Below, in pieces: positions 20,883 to 28,719 of a stretch of DNA of 64,000 nucleotides (position 1 is its first letter; each line of letters begins with the position of its first letter). This DNA is from Propioniciclava coleopterorum (GTDB taxonomy: Bacteria; Actinomycetota; Actinomycetes; Propionibacteriales; Propionibacteriaceae): contig NZ_CP049865.1 in assembly GCF_011393335.1 (NCBI RefSeq), forward strand, positions 3,490,722-3,554,721, read 5' to 3'. The translations under genes were made by a program, and so were the position numbers. The notes below the pieces were generated by a model that worked only from the letters and a program-made list of their open reading frames with translations, was not told where the DNA came from and ran no database searches.

Positions 20883-22292
20883 TCACAGCGCGACCGCGCG
20901 CGCGATCGTGAAGTAGATCATCAACCCGGTGCCGTCCACGATCGTGGCGATCATGGGCGAGGACACCACGGCCGGGTCGATCCCGATCCGGCGCAGGATG
21001 AGCGGCAGCACGGCCGCGATCAGCGACGCCCACAGCACGATCGCGGCCAGCGACAACGCCACGGTGAGGATGACCGGGCCGCCGACGCCCAGCGTCCAGG
21101 CGCGTGCGGCGCCCATGGCGGCCATCGACAGCCCCAGCAGGACGCCGGTGCGCGACTCCTTCCACACCACCCTGACCAGATCGCGCGCCCGGAGCCCCTC
21201 CGACCCCATCGCGCGGATCAGGGTCGTCGTGATCTGGGTGCCGACGTTGCCGCCGGTGCCGATCAGCAGCGGGATGAAGAAGGCCAGTGCGACCACGTGG
21301 CTGAGCTCGTCCTCGAACGCGCGCAGCACCGTGCCGGTGTACATCTCGGCCAGGAACAGCACCGCGAGCCACGGGGCGCGGGCCCGCCACAGCCGCCACG
21401 GGGACGCCTGCAGGTAGGGACGCCCCAGCGGGGACGTGCCGCCCTGCAGCGCCGCGTCCTCGTCGCCCTCCTCCTCGCGGATGCTCTGGACACCGTCGCG
21501 GGTGATGACGCCCAGCAGGACGCCGTCCTCCAGCACCGGGACCACGCCGTCCGGCGAGTCGTCGGCGGCCCGCAGCACGTGCTCCTGGTCGGCGAGCGCC
21601 GACACCGACCAGCCGCGCAGCTCGTCGCGCGCGACCATCACGCCGGTGACGGGCGCGTCCGGGTCGGCGACCACGAGGGCGCGCAGCGGGATCCAGCCCA
21701 GCAGGGCGGCCTCGTCGCTGAACGCGTGCGCGTGGACCGGGCGGCGGTCGACGTAGACCCCCTCGTCGGCGCAGTCGGGGTCGCGGCGCGCCGCGGCGAG
21801 GGCGTCGGCCACGCGGGCGTCCTGATCCACGTGCAGGTAGGCGGGCCGCATCCAGGAGGCCGCGGACTCCTCGGGCCAGGCCAGCAGCCCGCGCAGCAGC
21901 GCCGACTGGGCGTTGGGCAGGCTCGCCAGGACGCGGGCGGCCACGTCGGCGTCCAGCGTGCGGACGACGCGGGACGCCTCGTCCTCAGGCAGGAGGCCGA
22001 GCAGGCCGGCGGCGGTCGGGGCGGGGACGGCGTCCAGCAGCATCCCGGCGGTGTGGGGCTCGAGCCGGTCCATGAGCCGGGACGCCGACTCCGGCGTGAG
22101 GACGTCCGCGAGCTGGGTCAGCTCCCGGCGGTCCAGGGCGGCGACCTGAGCGTCCACCTCGTCGGTGGGCGTGGAGCCGAGCCACAGCGTGACGGCGGCG
22201 GGCGTGCGGGCGGCGAGCACCTCGGCCAGATCGGCCGGGGCGCGGCGCAGGCGCTCGAGGGTGGGCGTGGTGGTGCGTGCGAACAGGGGCAT
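20883..22292 (-). CDS. mgtE: Magnesium transporter MgtE
   Basis: The product is 469 residues with the MgtE order: an N-terminal superhelical domain (about 1-130, LTPESASRLMDRL, LPEDEASRVVRTL), a CBS pair (about 140-275) that senses Mg2+, and a five-helix channel domain. The channel carries IGTGGNVGTQ and the pore helix IDPAVVSSPMIATIVDGTGLMIYF (the core PAVVSSP is the family signature). GGGAG precedes the ATG by eight bases. The 373 bases upstream hold a promoter, a short leader ORF and a hairpin, suggesting regulation after transcription starts. Confidence 0.95.
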   Translation of the reverse strand: MPLFARTTTPTLERLRRAPADLAEVLAARTPAAVTLWLGSTPTDEVDAQVAALDRRELTQLADVLTPESASRLMDRLEPHTAGMLLDAVPAPTAAGLLGLLPEDEASRVVRTLDADVAARVLASLPNAQSALLRGLLAWPEESAASWMRPAYLHVDQDARVADALAAARRDPDCADEGVYVDRRPVHAHAFSDEAALLGWIPLRALVVADPDAPVTGVMVARDELRGWSVSALADQEHVLRAADDSPDGVVPVLEDGVLLGVITRDGVQSIREEEGDEDAALQGGTSPLGRPYLQASPWRLWRARAPWLAVLFLAEMYTGTVLRAFEDELSHVVALAFFIPLLIGTGGNVGTQITTTLIRAMGSEGLRARDLVRVVWKESRTGVLLGLSMAAMGAARAWTLGVGGPVILTVALSLAAIVLWASLIAAVLPLILRRIGIDPAVVSSPMIATIVDGTGLMIYFTIARAVAL

Positions 22293-22310
22293 GGCGGTGT
22301 CTCCCGGTCT

Positions 22311-22333
22311 GCGGCCGCGCGTGATGCGGCCGC
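22311..22333 (-). promoter_or_regulatory. GC hairpin next to the mgtE ribosome site
   Basis: Two copies of GCGGCCGC (22311-22318 and 22326-22333) flank a seven-base loop and form an eight-base-pair stem. The stem ends five bases before the mgtE GGGAG. It could act as an attenuator or block ribosome entry depending on how far the leader ORF is translated. There is no T-run, so it is not a classic terminator. Confidence 0.45.
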
Positions 22334-22399
22334 GGGTGCGGCGTGGTTGGCGGGGCGACGCGCCCAGATGTCACCGCCGGCGGCCAGCCCCTGGGGGCG

Positions 22400-22465
22400 T
22401 CAGCGCACGCGGGAGGTCACGACCGGGAGCGTCGTGGGTGACGGACTGTGATCCGGAACGTCCAC
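22400..22465 (-). CDS. Possible mgtE leader peptide (MgtL-like, 21 residues)
   Basis: A short ORF starts at GTG 22465, seven bases after a near-perfect GAGGAGGT (22473-22480), and ends at TGA 22402-22400. Its first 14 residues are MDVPDHSPSPTTLP. It is rich in Pro and Asp, as is the Salmonella leader MgtL (MEPDPTPLP...), whose translation is sensitive to low Mg2+ and controls mgtA. It lies just after a predicted promoter and 107 bases before the mgtE ATG. The role is inferred from position and composition; no homology search was made. Confidence 0.5.
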   Translation of the reverse strand: MDVPDHSPSPTTLPVVTSRVR

Positions 22466-22501
22466 GGACAACACCTCCTCAGGTCGATCGGGCCACCGAC
22501 C

Positions 22502-22507
22502 AGCCTA
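22502..22507 (-). promoter_or_regulatory. -10 element of the mgtE leader transcript
   Basis: TAGGCT on the minus strand fits TANNNT and would start a transcript about 15-20 bases before the leader ribosome site. No good -35 was seen. It lies between the terminator-like hairpin of gltD and the leader ORF, the place expected for an independent mgtE promoter. Confidence 0.4.
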
Positions 22508-22558
22508 TCCCGTCCCCGTCGCCCGGGCCACCCGGCGGGCCCTGAGCGGGTGCCGTCG

Positions 22559-22653
22559 GCCGGACGCCGCCCCCGTTCGCCGCGAAACGCCCCCGTCCGA
22601 CGCAGCCGTCCCCGCTGCAACGCGGGCGGCCGACGCGAACGGGGGCGTCCGGC
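22559..22653 (-). terminator. Large GC hairpin downstream of gltD
   Basis: The arms at 22559-22580 and 22635-22653 pair along gcgaacggggg and gcgtccggc with a two-base bulge. The 54-base interior carries more G/C repeats (cgcccccgt). The structure lies 12 bases beyond the gltD stop and probably ends the gltBD transcript. It lacks a T-run. Confidence 0.5.
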
Positions 22654-22665
22654 TCGAGTCGGGCC

Positions 22666-24132
22666 TCAGACCAGCAGGGGCCGATCGTTGGGCTGGATGG
22701 GCTTGGGGAGGTTGGAGCTGCCCTGGAGGTAGGCGTCCACGCCGTTGGCGGCGCTGCGGCCCTCCGCGATGGCCCACACGATCAGCGACTGGCCGCGGCC
22801 CGCGTCCCCGGCGACGAACACGCCCGGCACCGAGGTCTGGAAGTCCGCGCCGCGGGCGATGTTGCCCCGGGGGTCCAGTTCGACGCCCAGCTCCTCGACC
22901 ACGCCGGTCTGCTGCGGGCCGACGAAGCCCATCGCGAGCAGCACCAGGTCGGCGGGGATGACCCGCTCGGTGCCCTCGACCGGGGTGAGCCTGCCGTCCA
23001 CGAACGTCACCTCCGACAGGCGCAGCGCCGTGACGCGGCCGTCCTCGCCGGTGAACTCGCTGGTGGAGACCGCGAACTGACGGTTGACGTCCCCCTCCTC
23101 GTGCGAGGTGCTGACCCGGAAGATCATCGGGTAGGTGGGCCACGGCTGGCCGGCCGGGCGCCCCTCCGGGGGCGTGGGCAGGATCTCCAGCTGCGTCACC
23201 GAGGCGGCGCCCTGGCGCAGCGACGTGCCGATGCAGTCCGAGCCGGTGTCGCCGCCGCCGATCACGACGACGTGCTTGCCGGCCGCCGTGATCTGGTCGG
23301 CCACGGTCTGGCCCACCGCCGCGCGGTTGGCCTGGGGCAGGAAGTCCATCGCCTGGTGGATGCCGCTCAGCTCGCGGCCGGGGATCGGCAGGTCGCGGGG
23401 CACCGTGGAACCGATGGCCAGCACGACCGCGTCGAACCGGTCGCGGAGCTGCTCGCCGGTGATGTCGACGCCGATCGTCGTGCGGGACTTGAAGACCGTG
23501 CCCTCCTGCCGCATCTGCCGCAGCCGTCGGTTGAGGACCTTCTTCTCCATCTTGAACTCGGGGATCCCGAACCGCAGCAGGCCGCCGATGTCGTCGCTGC
23601 GCTCGTAGACCACCACCGTGTGACCGGCGCGGGTCAGCTGCTGCGCGGCGGCCAGCCCGGCGGGGCCGGAACCGACCACGGCGACGGTCTTGTTGGTGTG
23701 CCACTCGGGCACCACCGGCACGACGCGGCGGTCGTCCCACGCCTTGTCGGCGATGGCGACCTCGACGTTCTTGATGGTCACCGGCTCCCGGTTGATGCCG
23801 ACGACGCACGCCGTCTCGCACGGGGCCGGGCAGAGGCGTCCGGTGAACTCGGGGAAGTTGTTGGTCGCGTGCAGCCGATCGGTCGCCTCGCGCCACTGGT
23901 CCTTGTAGATCAGGTCGTTCCACTCGGGGATCAGGTTGCCCAGCGGGCAGCCCTGGTGGCAGAACGGGATGCCGCAGTCCATGCAGCGGGACGCCTGCTG
24001 CCGGATGATCGGCAGGACGGCGCGGCCGGGCGAGCCCGGGTAGACCTCGTCCCAGTCCCGGACGCGGTCGGCGGCGGGGCGCCGCTCCGCGAGTTCGCGG
24101 GCGACGTTGATGAAACCCTTCGGATCAGCCAT
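22666..24132 (-). CDS. gltD: Glutamate synthase small subunit GltD
   Basis: GltD passes electrons from NADPH to the large subunit for glutamate formation. The product is 488 residues. It has an N-terminal cysteine cluster for Fe-S binding (SRCMDCGIPFCHQGCPLGN and GRLCPAPCETACV), an FAD motif AVVGSGPAGLAAAQQL and an NADPH motif VVIGGGDTGSDCIG. The C-terminal FAD stretch is VFVAGDAGRGQSLIVWAI. The start overlaps the gltB stop by 8 bases. Confidence 0.96.
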   Translation of the reverse strand: MADPKGFINVARELAERRPAADRVRDWDEVYPGSPGRAVLPIIRQQASRCMDCGIPFCHQGCPLGNLIPEWNDLIYKDQWREATDRLHATNNFPEFTGRLCPAPCETACVVGINREPVTIKNVEVAIADKAWDDRRVVPVVPEWHTNKTVAVVGSGPAGLAAAQQLTRAGHTVVVYERSDDIGGLLRFGIPEFKMEKKVLNRRLRQMRQEGTVFKSRTTIGVDITGEQLRDRFDAVVLAIGSTVPRDLPIPGRELSGIHQAMDFLPQANRAAVGQTVADQITAAGKHVVVIGGGDTGSDCIGTSLRQGAASVTQLEILPTPPEGRPAGQPWPTYPMIFRVSTSHEEGDVNRQFAVSTSEFTGEDGRVTALRLSEVTFVDGRLTPVEGTERVIPADLVLLAMGFVGPQQTGVVEELGVELDPRGNIARGADFQTSVPGVFVAGDAGRGQSLIVWAIAEGRSAANGVDAYLQGSSNLPKPIQPNDRPLLV

Positions 24133-27100
24133 GAGCGGCCTCCATCATCCTGGTGGTGGTGTCGTGCTCGTCGAGGCCCTCGGCCTCGGCCCGTTCCCGG
24201 GCGGCGATGACACGCGCGTAGTCGCGCGGGAGCACCTTGGTGAACCGATCGCGCCAGGACGCCGCGCCGGCGTCCAGCAGCCCTTGGGCGACGGGCGACC
24301 CCGTGGCCTCGGCGTGCTTGCGCAGCAGCGTCTCGATGCGGTCGATGTCGGAGTCGGTCAGCTCGGCGGCGTCCACGAGCTCGGTGTTGAGCCGGGCGGC
24401 GTCCAGGTCGAGGATCCACGCCAGGCCGCCGGACATGCCCGCGGCGACGTTGCGCCCGGTCGGGCCGAGGATCAGCGCCTCGCCGCCGGTCATGTACTCG
24501 CAGGCGTGGTCGCCCACGCCCTCGACGACCGCGGACGCCCCGGAGTTGCGGACGCAGAACCGCTCGCCCACCTGCCCCGGATGTACAGCTCGCCCGAGGT
24601 GGCGCCGTAGCCGATGACGTTGCCGGCGATGATCTCCTCCTCGGCGACGAAGCGGGACGCCTCGTCGGGCCGCACGGACAGGCGTCCGCCCGAGAGCCCC
24701 TTGCCGAAGTAGTCGTTCGTGTCGCCCACCAGGCGCAGCGTGACCCCGCGCGGCAGGAAGGCGCCGAAGCTCTGCCCGCCCGTGCCGGTGAACGTCACGT
24801 CGATGGTGTCCTCGGGCAGCCCCTTGCCGAGCGTCGCCCTGGTGACGGCGTTGCCGAGCATGGTGCCCACGGTGCGGTCGACGTTGCTGACCGTCGTGGT
24901 GATCGTGACCTTCTCGCCACGCTCCAGAGCGGGGGCCGCCTGCGCGATCAGGTCGTTGTCGAGCTTGGCGGCCAGGCCGTGATCCTGGGTGGTGACCCGG
25001 TGCAGCGGCCCGTCGGTCTCGACGCGGTGCAGGATCGGGCTCAGATCCAGGCCCTCGGCCTTCCAGTGCTCGATCGCGTCCCTGGTCCGCAGCGCCTCGA
25101 CGTGACCGACGGCCTCCTCGATGGAGCGGAAGCCCAGCATCGCCAGGTGCTCGCGGACCTCCTCGGCGATGAACTCGAAGAAGTTCACCACGAAGTCGGC
25201 GTGGCCGGAGTAGCGGGCGCGCAGGTCGGGGTTCTGGGTGGCGACGCCGACCGGGCAGGTGTCGAGGTGGCACACGCGCATCATGATGCAGCCGCTGACC
25301 ACCAGCGGGGCGGTGGCGAAGCCGAACTCCTCGGCGCCGAGCAGCGCCCCGATCACGACGTCGCGGCCGGTCTTGAGCTGGCCGTCCACCTGCACGACGA
25401 TCCGGTCGCGCAACCCGTTGAGCAGCAGGGTCTGCTGCGTCTCGGCCAGGCCGAGTTCCCACGGGCCGCCCGCGTGCTTGAGCGAGGTGAGCGGCGCCGC
25501 GCCGGTGCCGCCGTCGTGGCCCGAGATCAGGACGACGTCCGCCTTGGCCTTGCTGACCCCGGCGGCGACCGTCCCGACGCCGACCTCGGCGACGAGCTTG
25601 ACGTGGATGCGCGCCACGGGGTTGGCGCACTTCAGATCGTGGATGAGCTGCTTGAGGTCCTCGATCGAGTAGATGTCGTGGTGCGGCGGCGGGCTGATCA
25701 GCCCCACGCCCGGCGTCGAGTGCCGGGTCCGGGCGACCCACGGGTACACCTTCTGGCCGGGCAGCTGGCCGCCTTCGCCGGGCTTGGCGCCCTGGGCCAT
25801 CTTGATCTGGATGTCGTCGGCGTTGGTCAGGTAGTCGCTCGTGACGCCGAAGCGACCCGAGGCCACCTGCTTGATCGCCGACCGGCGGGCCGGGTCGTGC
25901 AGCCGCTCGGGATCCTCGCCGCCCTCGCCGGTGTTGGACTTGGCGCCCAGCCGGTTCATCGCGATCGCCAGGGTCTCGTGCGCCTCCAGGCTGATGGAGC
26001 CGTAGCTCATCGCGCCGGTGGAGAACCGCTTGACGATCTCGCTGACCGGCTCGACCTCCTCCAGCGGCACCGGGGTGCGGGTCGTGTCGAAGTCGAGCAG
26101 GCCGCGCACCGTCATCAGCCGGCGGGACTGGTCGTTCACCCGGGCGGTGTACTGCTGGAAGATGTCGTAGCGCTTCTGGCGCGTCGAGTGCTGCAGCCGG
26201 AACACGGTCTCGGGGTCGAAGAGGTGCGCCGGGCCCTCGCGGCGCCACTTGTACTCCCCACCCTCGTCCAGGGTGCGGTGCGGCAGGGTGCGGCGGTCGA
26301 CGGGGTAGCCGATGTCGTGGCGGGACTGGATCTCGCGGGCGATCTGCTCCAGCCCGATGCCCTCGACGCGGCTGGGCGTCCCGGTGAAGTACTTCTCGAC
26401 GAGCGCGGACGACAGGCCGACCGCCTCGTAGATCTGCGCGCCGGCGTAGGAGGCGATCGTGGAGACGCCCATCTTGGACATCACCTTCAGCACGCCCTTG
26501 CCCAGGGCCTTGCGGACGTTGGTGACCGCCTTCTCCGGGTCGACCGTCACGAACATGTCGTGCCGGGCCAGGTCCTCGGCCGTCTCGAACACCAGGTACG
26601 GGTTCACCGCCGCGGCGCCGAAGCCGATCAGCAGCGCCACGTGGTGCACCTCGCGGACGTCGCCCGCCTCGACGATCAGCCCCACCTGCGTGCGGGTCTT
26701 CTCCCGGACGAGGTGGTGGTGGACCGCCGCCGTGAGCAGCAACGACGGGATGGGCGCCATGTCGATGTTGGAGTGCCGGTCGGACAACACGATCGTGCGG
26801 CAGCCGTTCGCGATGGCCTCGCTGACCTCGGCGCAGATCTCCGCCAGCCGGCGCTCGAGTTCCTCGGCCCCGCCGAGCAGCCGGTACAGCCCGCGGACGA
26901 CGTGCGCCTCGAACTGCGGCTGCGTGCCGTCGCGGTTGATCCGGACGAGCTTGGCGAGCTCGTCGGAGTCGAGCACCGGGTAGCCGATGACGATCTGCTG
27001 GCAGGACTCCGGCCCGGCGGACAGCAGGTTGGCCTCGGGGCCGAACGACGCCCGCAGGCTCGTGACGAGCTCCTCGCGGATGGCGTCCAGCGGCGGGTTC

Positions 27101-28641
27101 GTCACCTGGGCGAACAGCTGGGTGAAGTAGTCGAACAGCAGGCGCGGCCGGTCCGAGAGCACGGCGAGCGGGGTGTCCGAGCCCATCGAGCCGATCGGCT
27201 CGGCGCCCGTCTGCGCCATGGGCGCGACGATCATCTTCAGCTCCTCGTGGGTGAAGCCGAAGACCTGCTGGCGCCGCGTCACCGACGCGTGGCTGTGCAC
27301 GACGTGCTGCCGCTCGGGCAGGTCGGAGAGTTCGAGCCGCTCGGTGATCCAGGCGCCGTAGGGCTGCGCGGCGGCGAGCGTCGACTTGATCTCGTCGTCG
27401 TCGATCAGGCGGTGCTCGGCCAGGTCGACCAGGAGCATGCGGCCCGGCTGGAGGCGTCCCTTGCGGACGACGCGCTCCGGCTCGATCGGCAGGACGCCGG
27501 CCTCGGACGCGAACACCACCAGCCCGTCGTCGGTCACCCAGTACCGGCCGGGGCGCAGGCCGTTGCGGTCCAGGGTGGCGCCGATCTGGGTGCCGTCGGT
27601 GAAGCAGACGGCCGCCGGGCCGTCCCAGGGCTCCATGACCGAGCTGTGGAACGAGTAGAAGTCGCGCCGGGCGGCGTCCATCTCGGCGTTGTTCTCCCAC
27701 GCCTCGGGGATCATCATCAGCACGGCGTGCGGCAGGGAGCGGCCGCCCAGGTGCAGCAGCTCGAGCACCTCATCGAAGGACGCCGAGTCCGACCCGTCGG
27801 GGTTGCAGATGGGGAACAGCCGACTCAGGTCGCCCGGGATGAGGTCGGTCTCGAGCAGCGCCTCGCGGGCCCGCATCCAGTTGCGGTTGCCCTTGACGGT
27901 GTTGATCTCGCCGTTGTGCGCCAGGAGCCGGTACGGGTGCGCCAGCTCCCACGACGGGAAGGTGTTGGTGGAGAACCGGGAGTGCACCAGCGCCAGCGCC
28001 GAGGCGGTGCGCTCGTCGGTCAGGTCGCCGAACACCTCGCCGAGTTGCTGGGTGGTGAGCATCCCCTTGTAGACGACCGTCCGGGCCGACAGCGACGCGA
28101 AGTAGGTGCCGGTCTCGTGCTCGGCGCGCTTGCGCAGCGGGTAGACATGGCGGTCCAGATCGATGCCGCCGGTGCCGCGGCGTCCGGTGACGAACAACTG
28201 CTCGAAGTGCGGCATCACGGCCCGGGAGATGGGGCTCAGCGTGTCGTCGCGCGTCGGGACGGGACGCCAGCCGAGCACGCGCAGGCCCTCCTCGATCGCG
28301 AGGTACTCGATGCGGTGCTTGGCCTCGGTGCGCGCGGCGTCCTCGCGCGGCAGGAACGCCAGCCCGACGGCGTAATGGCCGGCCGCGGGCAGGTCGAAAT
28401 CCACCGTCTCGCGGAACAGGTGGTCAGGGATCTGGAGCAGCATGCCCGCTCCGTCACCGGCGCGCTCGTCGGCGCCGGTGGCACCTCGGTGGTCGAGGTT
28501 CTCCAGGGCGAGCAGCCCCTGGGCCACGATCTCGTGGCTCGGTTCGCCGCTCAGCCTGGCGACGAACGCGACGCCGCAGGCGTCATGCTCGAAGTCATGC
28601 CGGTAGAGGCCCTCATCGGGCCTGTGGGGAAAAATGTTCAT
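24125..28641 (-). CDS. gltB: Glutamate synthase large subunit GltB (one apparent frameshift)
   Basis: GltB is the large glutaminase/synthase subunit, about 1505 residues. The N-terminal nucleophile is C22 (HDACGVAF), so a 21-residue propeptide is predicted to be removed. The FMN/Fe-S synthase core includes [45 protein letters not shown] and [16 protein letters not shown]. The C-terminal beta-helix is broken at the cccc run 24575-24578; one added base restores [15 protein letters not shown]. The ATG at 28641 follows GGAG. Confidence 0.95.
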
Positions 28642-28719
28642 TTGTGTCTCCATTCCCGCGGGCTCTGTGGCAGCCGCCGGATCGACGACCTCCTGGCCAC
28701 ACCGCATGGGCGCAGCAGC

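Follow-up and report, generated by a model that had tools for sequence, protein, structure and literature searches.

A leader open reading frame marked by the serine codon AGU precedes mgtE in Propioniciclava coleopterorum, recurs across Actinobacteria, and may tie Mg2+ transporter expression to translation

The Mg2+ leader peptides of the literature cited here are enterobacterial. Attenuation at one of them, MgtL, involves Rho. In the accessible text of one study, MgtL attenuation is described as translation dependent and linked to m1G37-dependent codons (PMC6335274). In mycobacteria, a conserved upstream open reading frame (uORF2, or Rv1805A) with proline at position 7 follows M-boxes and, in the part of the report that is accessible, is called mycobacteria-specific (PMC12810186). 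Our literature search, with most subscription journals outside its range, found such an ORF described only for mycobacteria.

We analyzed a 64,000-nucleotide stretch of the P. coleopterorum chromosome (contig NZ_CP049865.1; hereafter, the window), in which a reading of the letters alone had proposed a Mg2+-sensing leader peptide upstream of the transporter gene mgtE. The 21-codon ORF, the GAGGAGGT ribosome-binding site, and the TAGGCT box named in that sequence-only reading are all present, positions included (Table 1). The GTG start codon of the leader ORF (uORF) lies 8 bases past the last G of AGGAGG, and the predicted peptide carries Asp at positions 2 and 5 and four Pro residues; we infer that the ORF is translated. 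Since neither a consensus sigma-70 pair nor a -35 consensus was found in 22250-22700, the -10 assignment is a TANNNT match only. The same interval yielded no U-tailed terminator. Rfam returned zero matches at the gathering threshold across the window and nothing at a relaxed threshold (up to E = 10) in 22250-22700; the statement that the window leader has no M-box was thereby upheld by a covariance-model search (RF00380).

Upstream of this leader, between gltD and the mgtE promoter, the window holds a large G+C-rich inverted repeat (22568-22647) with 13-nt perfect arms (CGCCCCCGTTCGC/GCGAACGGGGGCG) and overlapping alternatives. It is perhaps the gltBD terminator; a scan found no T run. At about 24490-24620, on the minus strand, a gltB-like ORF (24490-28707) seems to switch frame near its end. 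The expected gltB continuation lies in the overlapping ORF 24125-27700, and thus either a frame change or an assembly error splits the gene.

Table 1. Features of the leader region and mgtE in the window (window coordinates)
Feature	Position	Strand	Basis or remark
mgtE, MgtE-type Mg2+ transporter, 469 aa	20883..22292	-	ATG at 22292; Pfam MgtE and MgtE_N
Weak Shine-Dalgarno GGGAG of mgtE	22301..22305	-	Sequence inspection
Hairpin GCGGCCGC-ATCACGC-GCGGCCGC, perfect 8 bp, 7-nt loop	22311-22333	-	Cellulomonadaceae counterpart with changing arms
GCGTCG after uORF	22356..22361	-	Motif common to 12/12 leaders
Leader ORF (uORF), MDVPDHSPSPTTLPVVTSRVR, 21 codons	22400..22465	-	GTG at 22465, stop TGA 22402-22400; has relatives
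CGACGC, uORF codons 11-13	22429..22434	-	Complements downstream GCGTCG
AGT (AGU) codon 7 of uORF, followed by CCG; group mark	22445..22447	-	In-frame AGT counts
Shine-Dalgarno GAGGAGGT of leader ORF	22473..22480	-	Sequence inspection
Pre-SD CGACC	22482..22486	-	Can pair with uORF GGTCG (22424-22420), 5 bp, by inspection
TAGGCT, probable -10 element	22502..22507	-	TANNNT match only

The check proposed with the original idea was whether the short ORF is kept in relatives. It is, and across families: ORFs of the same layout lie 5' of mgtE in 31 of 43 testable actinobacterial loci, in Cellulomonadaceae including Sanguibacter, Actinomycetaceae, Corynebacterium, Nocardia, the window's own family, and Rubrobacter (family names are those of a named member of each group). 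Outside the 43 stand three loci whose upstream sequence is cut by contig ends (L045, L050, and L057) and a partial match (L006, query 46-268) that comes without the transporter domain. The 12 mgtE loci in which the ORF is missing are L003-L005, L021, L028, L030, L031, L049, L055, L056, L064, and L067; L055 and L056 are each the second member of a tandem pair, and the genome of L049 has another copy with the ORF. That other copy, L054, has an internal TAG in mgtE and an intact AGU leader ORF (TTG start). Tandem mgtE pairs occur in two Cellulomonadaceae genomes: in L047/L056, the leader ORF sits on the first copy only, and in L045/L055, the first leader is cut by the contig end. Close mgtE homologs are rare in the window's family (3 of 198 genomes at E <= 1e-90), order (2 of 391 sampled genomes at E <= 1e-80), and class (3 of 394 sampled genomes at E <= 1e-75), with the window's own genome counted each time. 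Named contigs supplied 15 more mgtE loci, 6 of them actinobacterial, and the overlapping groups around four of these carry mgtE in 4/6, 3/242, 17/221, and 6/213 genomes.

The predicted leader peptides begin MSDSASSPHPSTPVV and MDDTASSRHPSTPVV in Cellulomonadaceae; MDPASSSPPDPP and MEPASCSPSD in Sanguibacter; MDTSASPLP and MDVSASPVP in Corynebacterium; MEGSSSHPSR in Actinomyces polynesiensis; MGSHSPGS and, with a weaker site, MGSQSSNSCPPP in other Actinomycetaceae; MEEPGSSDRP and MDISDSSDKR in the window's own family; MRSEPPSRRP in Nocardia farcinica; and MSEPASSTSD in Rubrobacter radiotolerans. The start codon is always a start (ATG in 31, GTG in 5, and TTG in 3 of 39 ORFs). The later part differs among families in sequence and length (13-37 aa overall), and the window peptide is weakly similar to single relatives (P < 0.05 for 2 of 16). 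Judged by this recurrence, the leader ORF is a real element, above chance.

Codon counts indicate that the mark shared by these ORFs is the serine codon AGU, not Asp/Pro. An in-frame AGU falls within codons 2-9 in 39 of 40 actinobacterial leader ORFs, the exception being that of Leifsonia (L072), and in bases 4-30 of the 39 ORFs, AGT occurs 75 times in frame 0 and 0 times in the other frames. This set of 39 excludes L072, L017, and L078, and it includes one ORF taken from an AGT-filtered scan (L022) and one from a relaxed scan (L070; start codon 14 bases past the last G of AGGAGG). The first 26 ORFs had been chosen by ribosome site, one per locus and with weaker-site ORFs left out, before AGU was seen; all 26 carry in-frame AGT within codons 2-7, and AGT makes up 49 of their 101 serine codons versus 10 of 671 in matching coding sequences. 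Codons 2-9 of the 39 ORFs total 312, of which 102 encode serine, 75 of them as AGU; at least two AGT codons are present in 31/39, and AGT stands immediately 5' of a proline codon in 17/39. In one locus (L059:1364-1430), a small repeat surrounds the AGU motif: CATAGTCATAGT lies 5' of the Shine-Dalgarno sequence and AGTCATAGT recurs within the ORF.

Among 12 short ORFs with a Shine-Dalgarno match of >= 6 in the window, AGT in codons 2-9 occurs only in the mgtE leader, and among 134 such ORFs across the fetched loci, 40 have AGT, of which 35 rows are leaders and 5 are others. A scan of all fetched loci and the window for ORFs whose start follows a site resembling AGGAGGTG returned 49 rows (places repeated), 42 of them with AGT; the seven lacking it comprise L072, three leader sites paired with an out-of-register start, and three unrelated ORFs. 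The window falls within the AGU-leader grouping as defined here, with a strong Shine-Dalgarno sequence, a start codon, AGT at codon 7, and a position 5' of a Mg2+ gene. We rejected the idea that AGU results from an AT-rich start ramp: the ramp is mild (GC3 of 0.64 in early non-AGT codons versus 0.79 later), and UCU/UCA are not used instead (4 versus 75 AGT).

An AGU-type ORF lies 3' of the M-box in 10 of 11 actinobacterial cases, ahead of mgtE, Nramp-type, or MgtC/SapB-type genes. Because the same ORF type follows these Mg2+-sensing elements, the link to magnesium is firmer than the sequence-only reading could know, and the accompanying genes and M-boxes suggest Mg2+ as the signal. Both elements stand on homologous mgtE in L027 and L029. 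Further M-boxes came from plasmid records searched at the DNA level with M-box leaders, and Rfam confirmed the M-box (RF00380) in all nine fetched actinobacterial records; a second Streptantibioticus record (H82, same strain) and second places in records were left out of the 11. The order M-box, then AGU ORF, is seen in Streptantibioticus, two Streptomyces, Embleya, Mycolicibacterium, Tsukamurella (MgtC/SapB annotated), and Arthrobacter and Pseudarthrobacter (Nramp annotated); the ORF of Leifsonia L072 (Nramp) lacks AGT. The paper "Transport of Magnesium by a Bacterial Nramp-Related Gene" mentions the M-box (PMC4072509). In L068, L069, L071, and L073, the next gene has no annotation; the first long ORF, assigned in all but L073, is Nramp-like in L068 and L069 and like the MgtC/SapB of L074 in L071. 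After these four Streptomycetaceae plasmid M-boxes (about 1745-1860), the ORF opens with a motif that is nearly fixed in peptide and codon alike: MDCSSSPG, MDCSCSSPG, MDCSSPG, or MACSSPG, the AGT falling at codons 4-7.

Five non-actinobacterial M-box leaders show that the AGU mark is mainly, not strictly, actinobacterial. Strict confinement is ruled out by Alicyclobacillus (L078:1448-1609), the one of the five with a full AGU ORF: its M-box is followed by a 9-base site AAGGAGGTG, GTG GAT TCA GGT CCT AGT, and an ORF of 54 codons, with AGT as codon 6, overlapping the beginning of the gene annotated as a divalent metal transporter. The ORF of Evansella L017:2290 (MDPVPEYS) follows a 6-base site and has AGT as codon 8, and AGT is no rarity there (4 of 26 mgtE serine codons); those of Alkalicoccus L018:2261 (MDPDICLF) and L019:2289 (MDPDSQIS) have no AGT, and Aeromonas L077 has no such ORF. 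The three Bacillaceae ORFs (L017-L019) follow an M-box and a T-tailed hairpin; their acidic/proline start recalls MgtL, of which they may be a variant.

We favor, with moderate confidence, a reading in which the translated leader ORF makes mgtE expression depend on ribosome progress; such control would probably be a response to Mg2+. The most serious competitor, which we consider unlikely, is intrinsic ribosome destabilization of the MgtL type, in which an acidic/proline nascent chain causes drop-off at low Mg2+ and AGU is incidental. MgtL had been the parallel drawn from the sequence alone, and it is right in kind and weak in signature. As with MgtL, a short ORF with a Shine-Dalgarno sequence lies 5' of a Mg2+ transporter gene, and Pro is enriched in codons 2-12 of the 26 uORFs (0.175 versus 0.051 in coding sequence). 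However, Asp+Glu over the same codons is flat (0.126 versus 0.125), so that an acidic/proline N terminus is not a conserved signature. An acidic codon does fall within codons 2-5 in 32 of 39 ORFs, the A. polynesiensis ORF carries a DDD run, and the MDPV/MDPD starts sit behind Bacillaceae M-boxes, but 6 of 26 ORFs, including L058-L061 and the M-box ORFs L027 and L029, have no acidic codon in codons 2-12. Codons of the m1G37 type (CCN, CTN, and CGG) make up 0.227 of codons 2-12 versus 0.200 in coding sequence. Destabilization by the nascent chain also leaves the choice of AGU over AGC and UCN unexplained. By the tests applied here, the leader ORF is not a member of the MgtL family, and by analogy it would work like Mg2+ leader peptides.

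It is less probable still that the ORF makes a small functional peptide, a regulator or transporter part, as a publication suggests for mycobacterial Rv1805A. A Ser/Pro motif recurs at the N terminus and the ORF occurs with different downstream genes, as such a peptide might, but the later part varies among families in length and sequence, and the codon is kept, not only the residue. In ten Cellulomonadaceae, the third base of codons 10-15 (CCG TCG ACG CCC GTC GTG) is fixed, with 6/6 fourfold sites invariant, whereas 22 of 171 fourfold sites are invariant in mgtE of the same ten taxa. Codons 10-15 are frozen at synonymous sites, and the fourfold site of codon 5 varies.

The synonymous freeze, together with hairpins showing joint changes, would suit an untranslated structured RNA, a new riboswitch for Mg2+ or another ligand with the ORF as a by-product, an explanation to which we give little credence. 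In Cellulomonadaceae, CCGTCGTGC in the uORF complements GCACGACGG immediately before the Shine-Dalgarno sequence, and the window has a shorter pair, CGACC/GGTCG, kept by inspection via changes on both sides. GCGTCG, the complement of CGACGC in the uORF, occurs within 140 bases past the uORF stop in 12/12 leaders (11 Cellulomonadaceae and the window), in segments picked by searching for that motif. A hairpin lies 3' of it in all 12, and its arms vary together (GCGCCGC/GCGGCGC, GCACCAC/GTGGTGC, and GGCGCTGC/GCAGCGCC). A two-helix Cellulomonadaceae model has 96% paired cells versus at most 55% when slid. Its 5' hairpin shows both-side changes at 2 of 6 pairs, which 37 of 500 shuffles equal; its second helix shows no both-side change, and 6 of its 8 pairs never vary. 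As a general feature, the 5' hairpin was rejected: it is convincing only in the Cellulomonadaceae alignment, single-sequence shuffles gave P <= 0.03 in 1 of 24 leaders, and in the window its left arm would fall before the likely transcription start.

The downstream hairpin at 22311-22333 had been proposed as a switch at the mgtE ribosome-binding site. The hairpin is present and was reached by 0 of 200 shuffles (6 to 39 of 200 in other leaders), but its Cellulomonadaceae counterparts lie shortly past the uORF and >100 bases 5' of mgtE, so it is not mainly such a switch. An anti-Shine-Dalgarno role of the uORF for mgtE (9-nt perfect complement, 22421-22429 with 22301-22309) was dropped since the match is not conserved, and uORF-mgtE ribosome site pairing reached P < 0.05 in 0 of 24 leaders. 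Among 24 leaders drawn from all groups, 7, some of them close relatives, show pairing of the start region with the 3' part of the uORF and the bases after it that beats shuffles at P <= 0.03; the other 17 lie above 0.03 (window, P = 0.26).

Against a structured RNA stand the in-frame restriction of AGU, the limitation of starts to ATG, GTG, and TTG, and the strong Shine-Dalgarno sequence. Whole-leader folding gave no riboswitch, the window folding no better than shuffles (z = 0.00). An upstream aptamer also has little room, because 23 of 39 leaders have a -10-like TANNNT box 34-74 bases 5' of the ORF (shuffles predict 9.4, and such boxes arise often in shuffles of the AT-rich leaders). These are 23 of the 29 leaders without an M-box and 0 of the 10 with one; where found, the box thus places the ORF first in the transcript.

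Attenuation by serine, with the ORF sensing charged tRNA-Ser(GCU), seems marginally less credible than a structured RNA. It would account for the serine-rich start with its predominance of AGU, but the identified downstream genes and the M-boxes point to Mg2+. Moreover, in the accessible text of a study of serine starvation in Bacillus subtilis, UCN codons are slowed and AGC/AGU are not, with a similar order reported for Escherichia coli (PMC3862929), which speaks against serine sensing. A chance ORF, for which short length alone speaks, is very improbable for the sole AGT bearer among the window's SD-led short ORFs, with relatives across families.

If mgtE expression does depend on ribosome progress along the leader ORF, the simplest fit would be ribosome-dependent attenuation, with strong initiation, an AGU/Pro stretch as the test, and codons that double as pairing segments. 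In ample Mg2+, strongly initiating ribosomes would clear the AGU/Pro stretch and finish the uORF; the GCGUCG/hairpin region would then act, perhaps through Rho or pausing, and mgtE would stay low. At low Mg2+, ribosomes would lose speed or drop off within the first 6-10 codons, pairing of the uORF would change, and mgtE would be expressed. The direction of this response, attenuation as the step, and Rho are what we infer; Rho or pausing is proposed because no U-tailed terminator was found, and the stretch from the uORF to mgtE has more C than G in 25 of 26 leaders, a weak hint of Rho. Where an M-box is present, the AGU ORF is probably its translational output.

A bolder version, which we put forward tentatively and think rather doubtful, makes AGU itself the sensor. 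AGU is read by wobble (G34:U3). A rare serine codon, often doubled, within codons 2-7 would stall or drop ribosomes at low Mg2+ and thereby turn on Mg2+ uptake, with low Mg2+ acting directly on decoding or via a Mg2+-dependent tRNA modification; M-boxes would have been added 5' of this ribosomal sensor or lost from it, and the sensor may extend past Actinobacteria, as in Alicyclobacillus. AGU may also act through something other than Mg2+.

Compared with described systems, the leader shares its position as a candidate cis element 5' of mgtE with a Thioalkalivibrio motif, which differs in being a riboswitch candidate of one genus with no uORF described in the accessible text (PMC11109978). The Corynebacterium ilvB-II uORF is likewise an actinobacterial leader ORF with attenuation but, in the part of the source consulted here, relies on branched-chain amino acid codons and an intrinsic terminator (PMC10272879). 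MgtQ, MgtM, and MgtP of Salmonella mgtCBR are tiny ORFs that steer Mg2+ transporter expression through RNA switches and translation (PMC8092293); MgtQ differs in its acidic codons 2 and 5 and its place inside the operon, and the accessible text describes no AGU mark for it (PMC8092293). MgtL, on mgtA of Salmonella and E. coli, shares a short ORF with a Pro-rich start 5' of a Mg2+ transporter gene, whereas in the window the transporter is MgtE, the host is an actinobacterium, and AGU is enriched while Asp/Glu and m1G37 codons are not clearly so. Mycobacterial uORF2/Rv1805A is also a conserved short ORF after an M-box. In Mycolicibacterium, a 25-codon ORF, MSPSDSPYPHLNLMLFPTSPRRNSR (L070:1782-1859), follows the M-box and is absent from the gene table. 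Its start, MSPSDSPYP, with AGT at codons 2, 4, and 6 and Pro at 7, agrees with the published remark on Pro 7 (PMC12810186), and it perhaps belongs to that family. Unlike the published ORF, described there as mycobacterial, similar ORFs occur across Actinobacteria, also without an M-box. The AGU leader module may also account for the conserved uORF that follows mycobacterial M-boxes, and an Actinobacteria-wide module marked by a codon, not a residue, would offer a new handle on how Mg2+ is read through translation.
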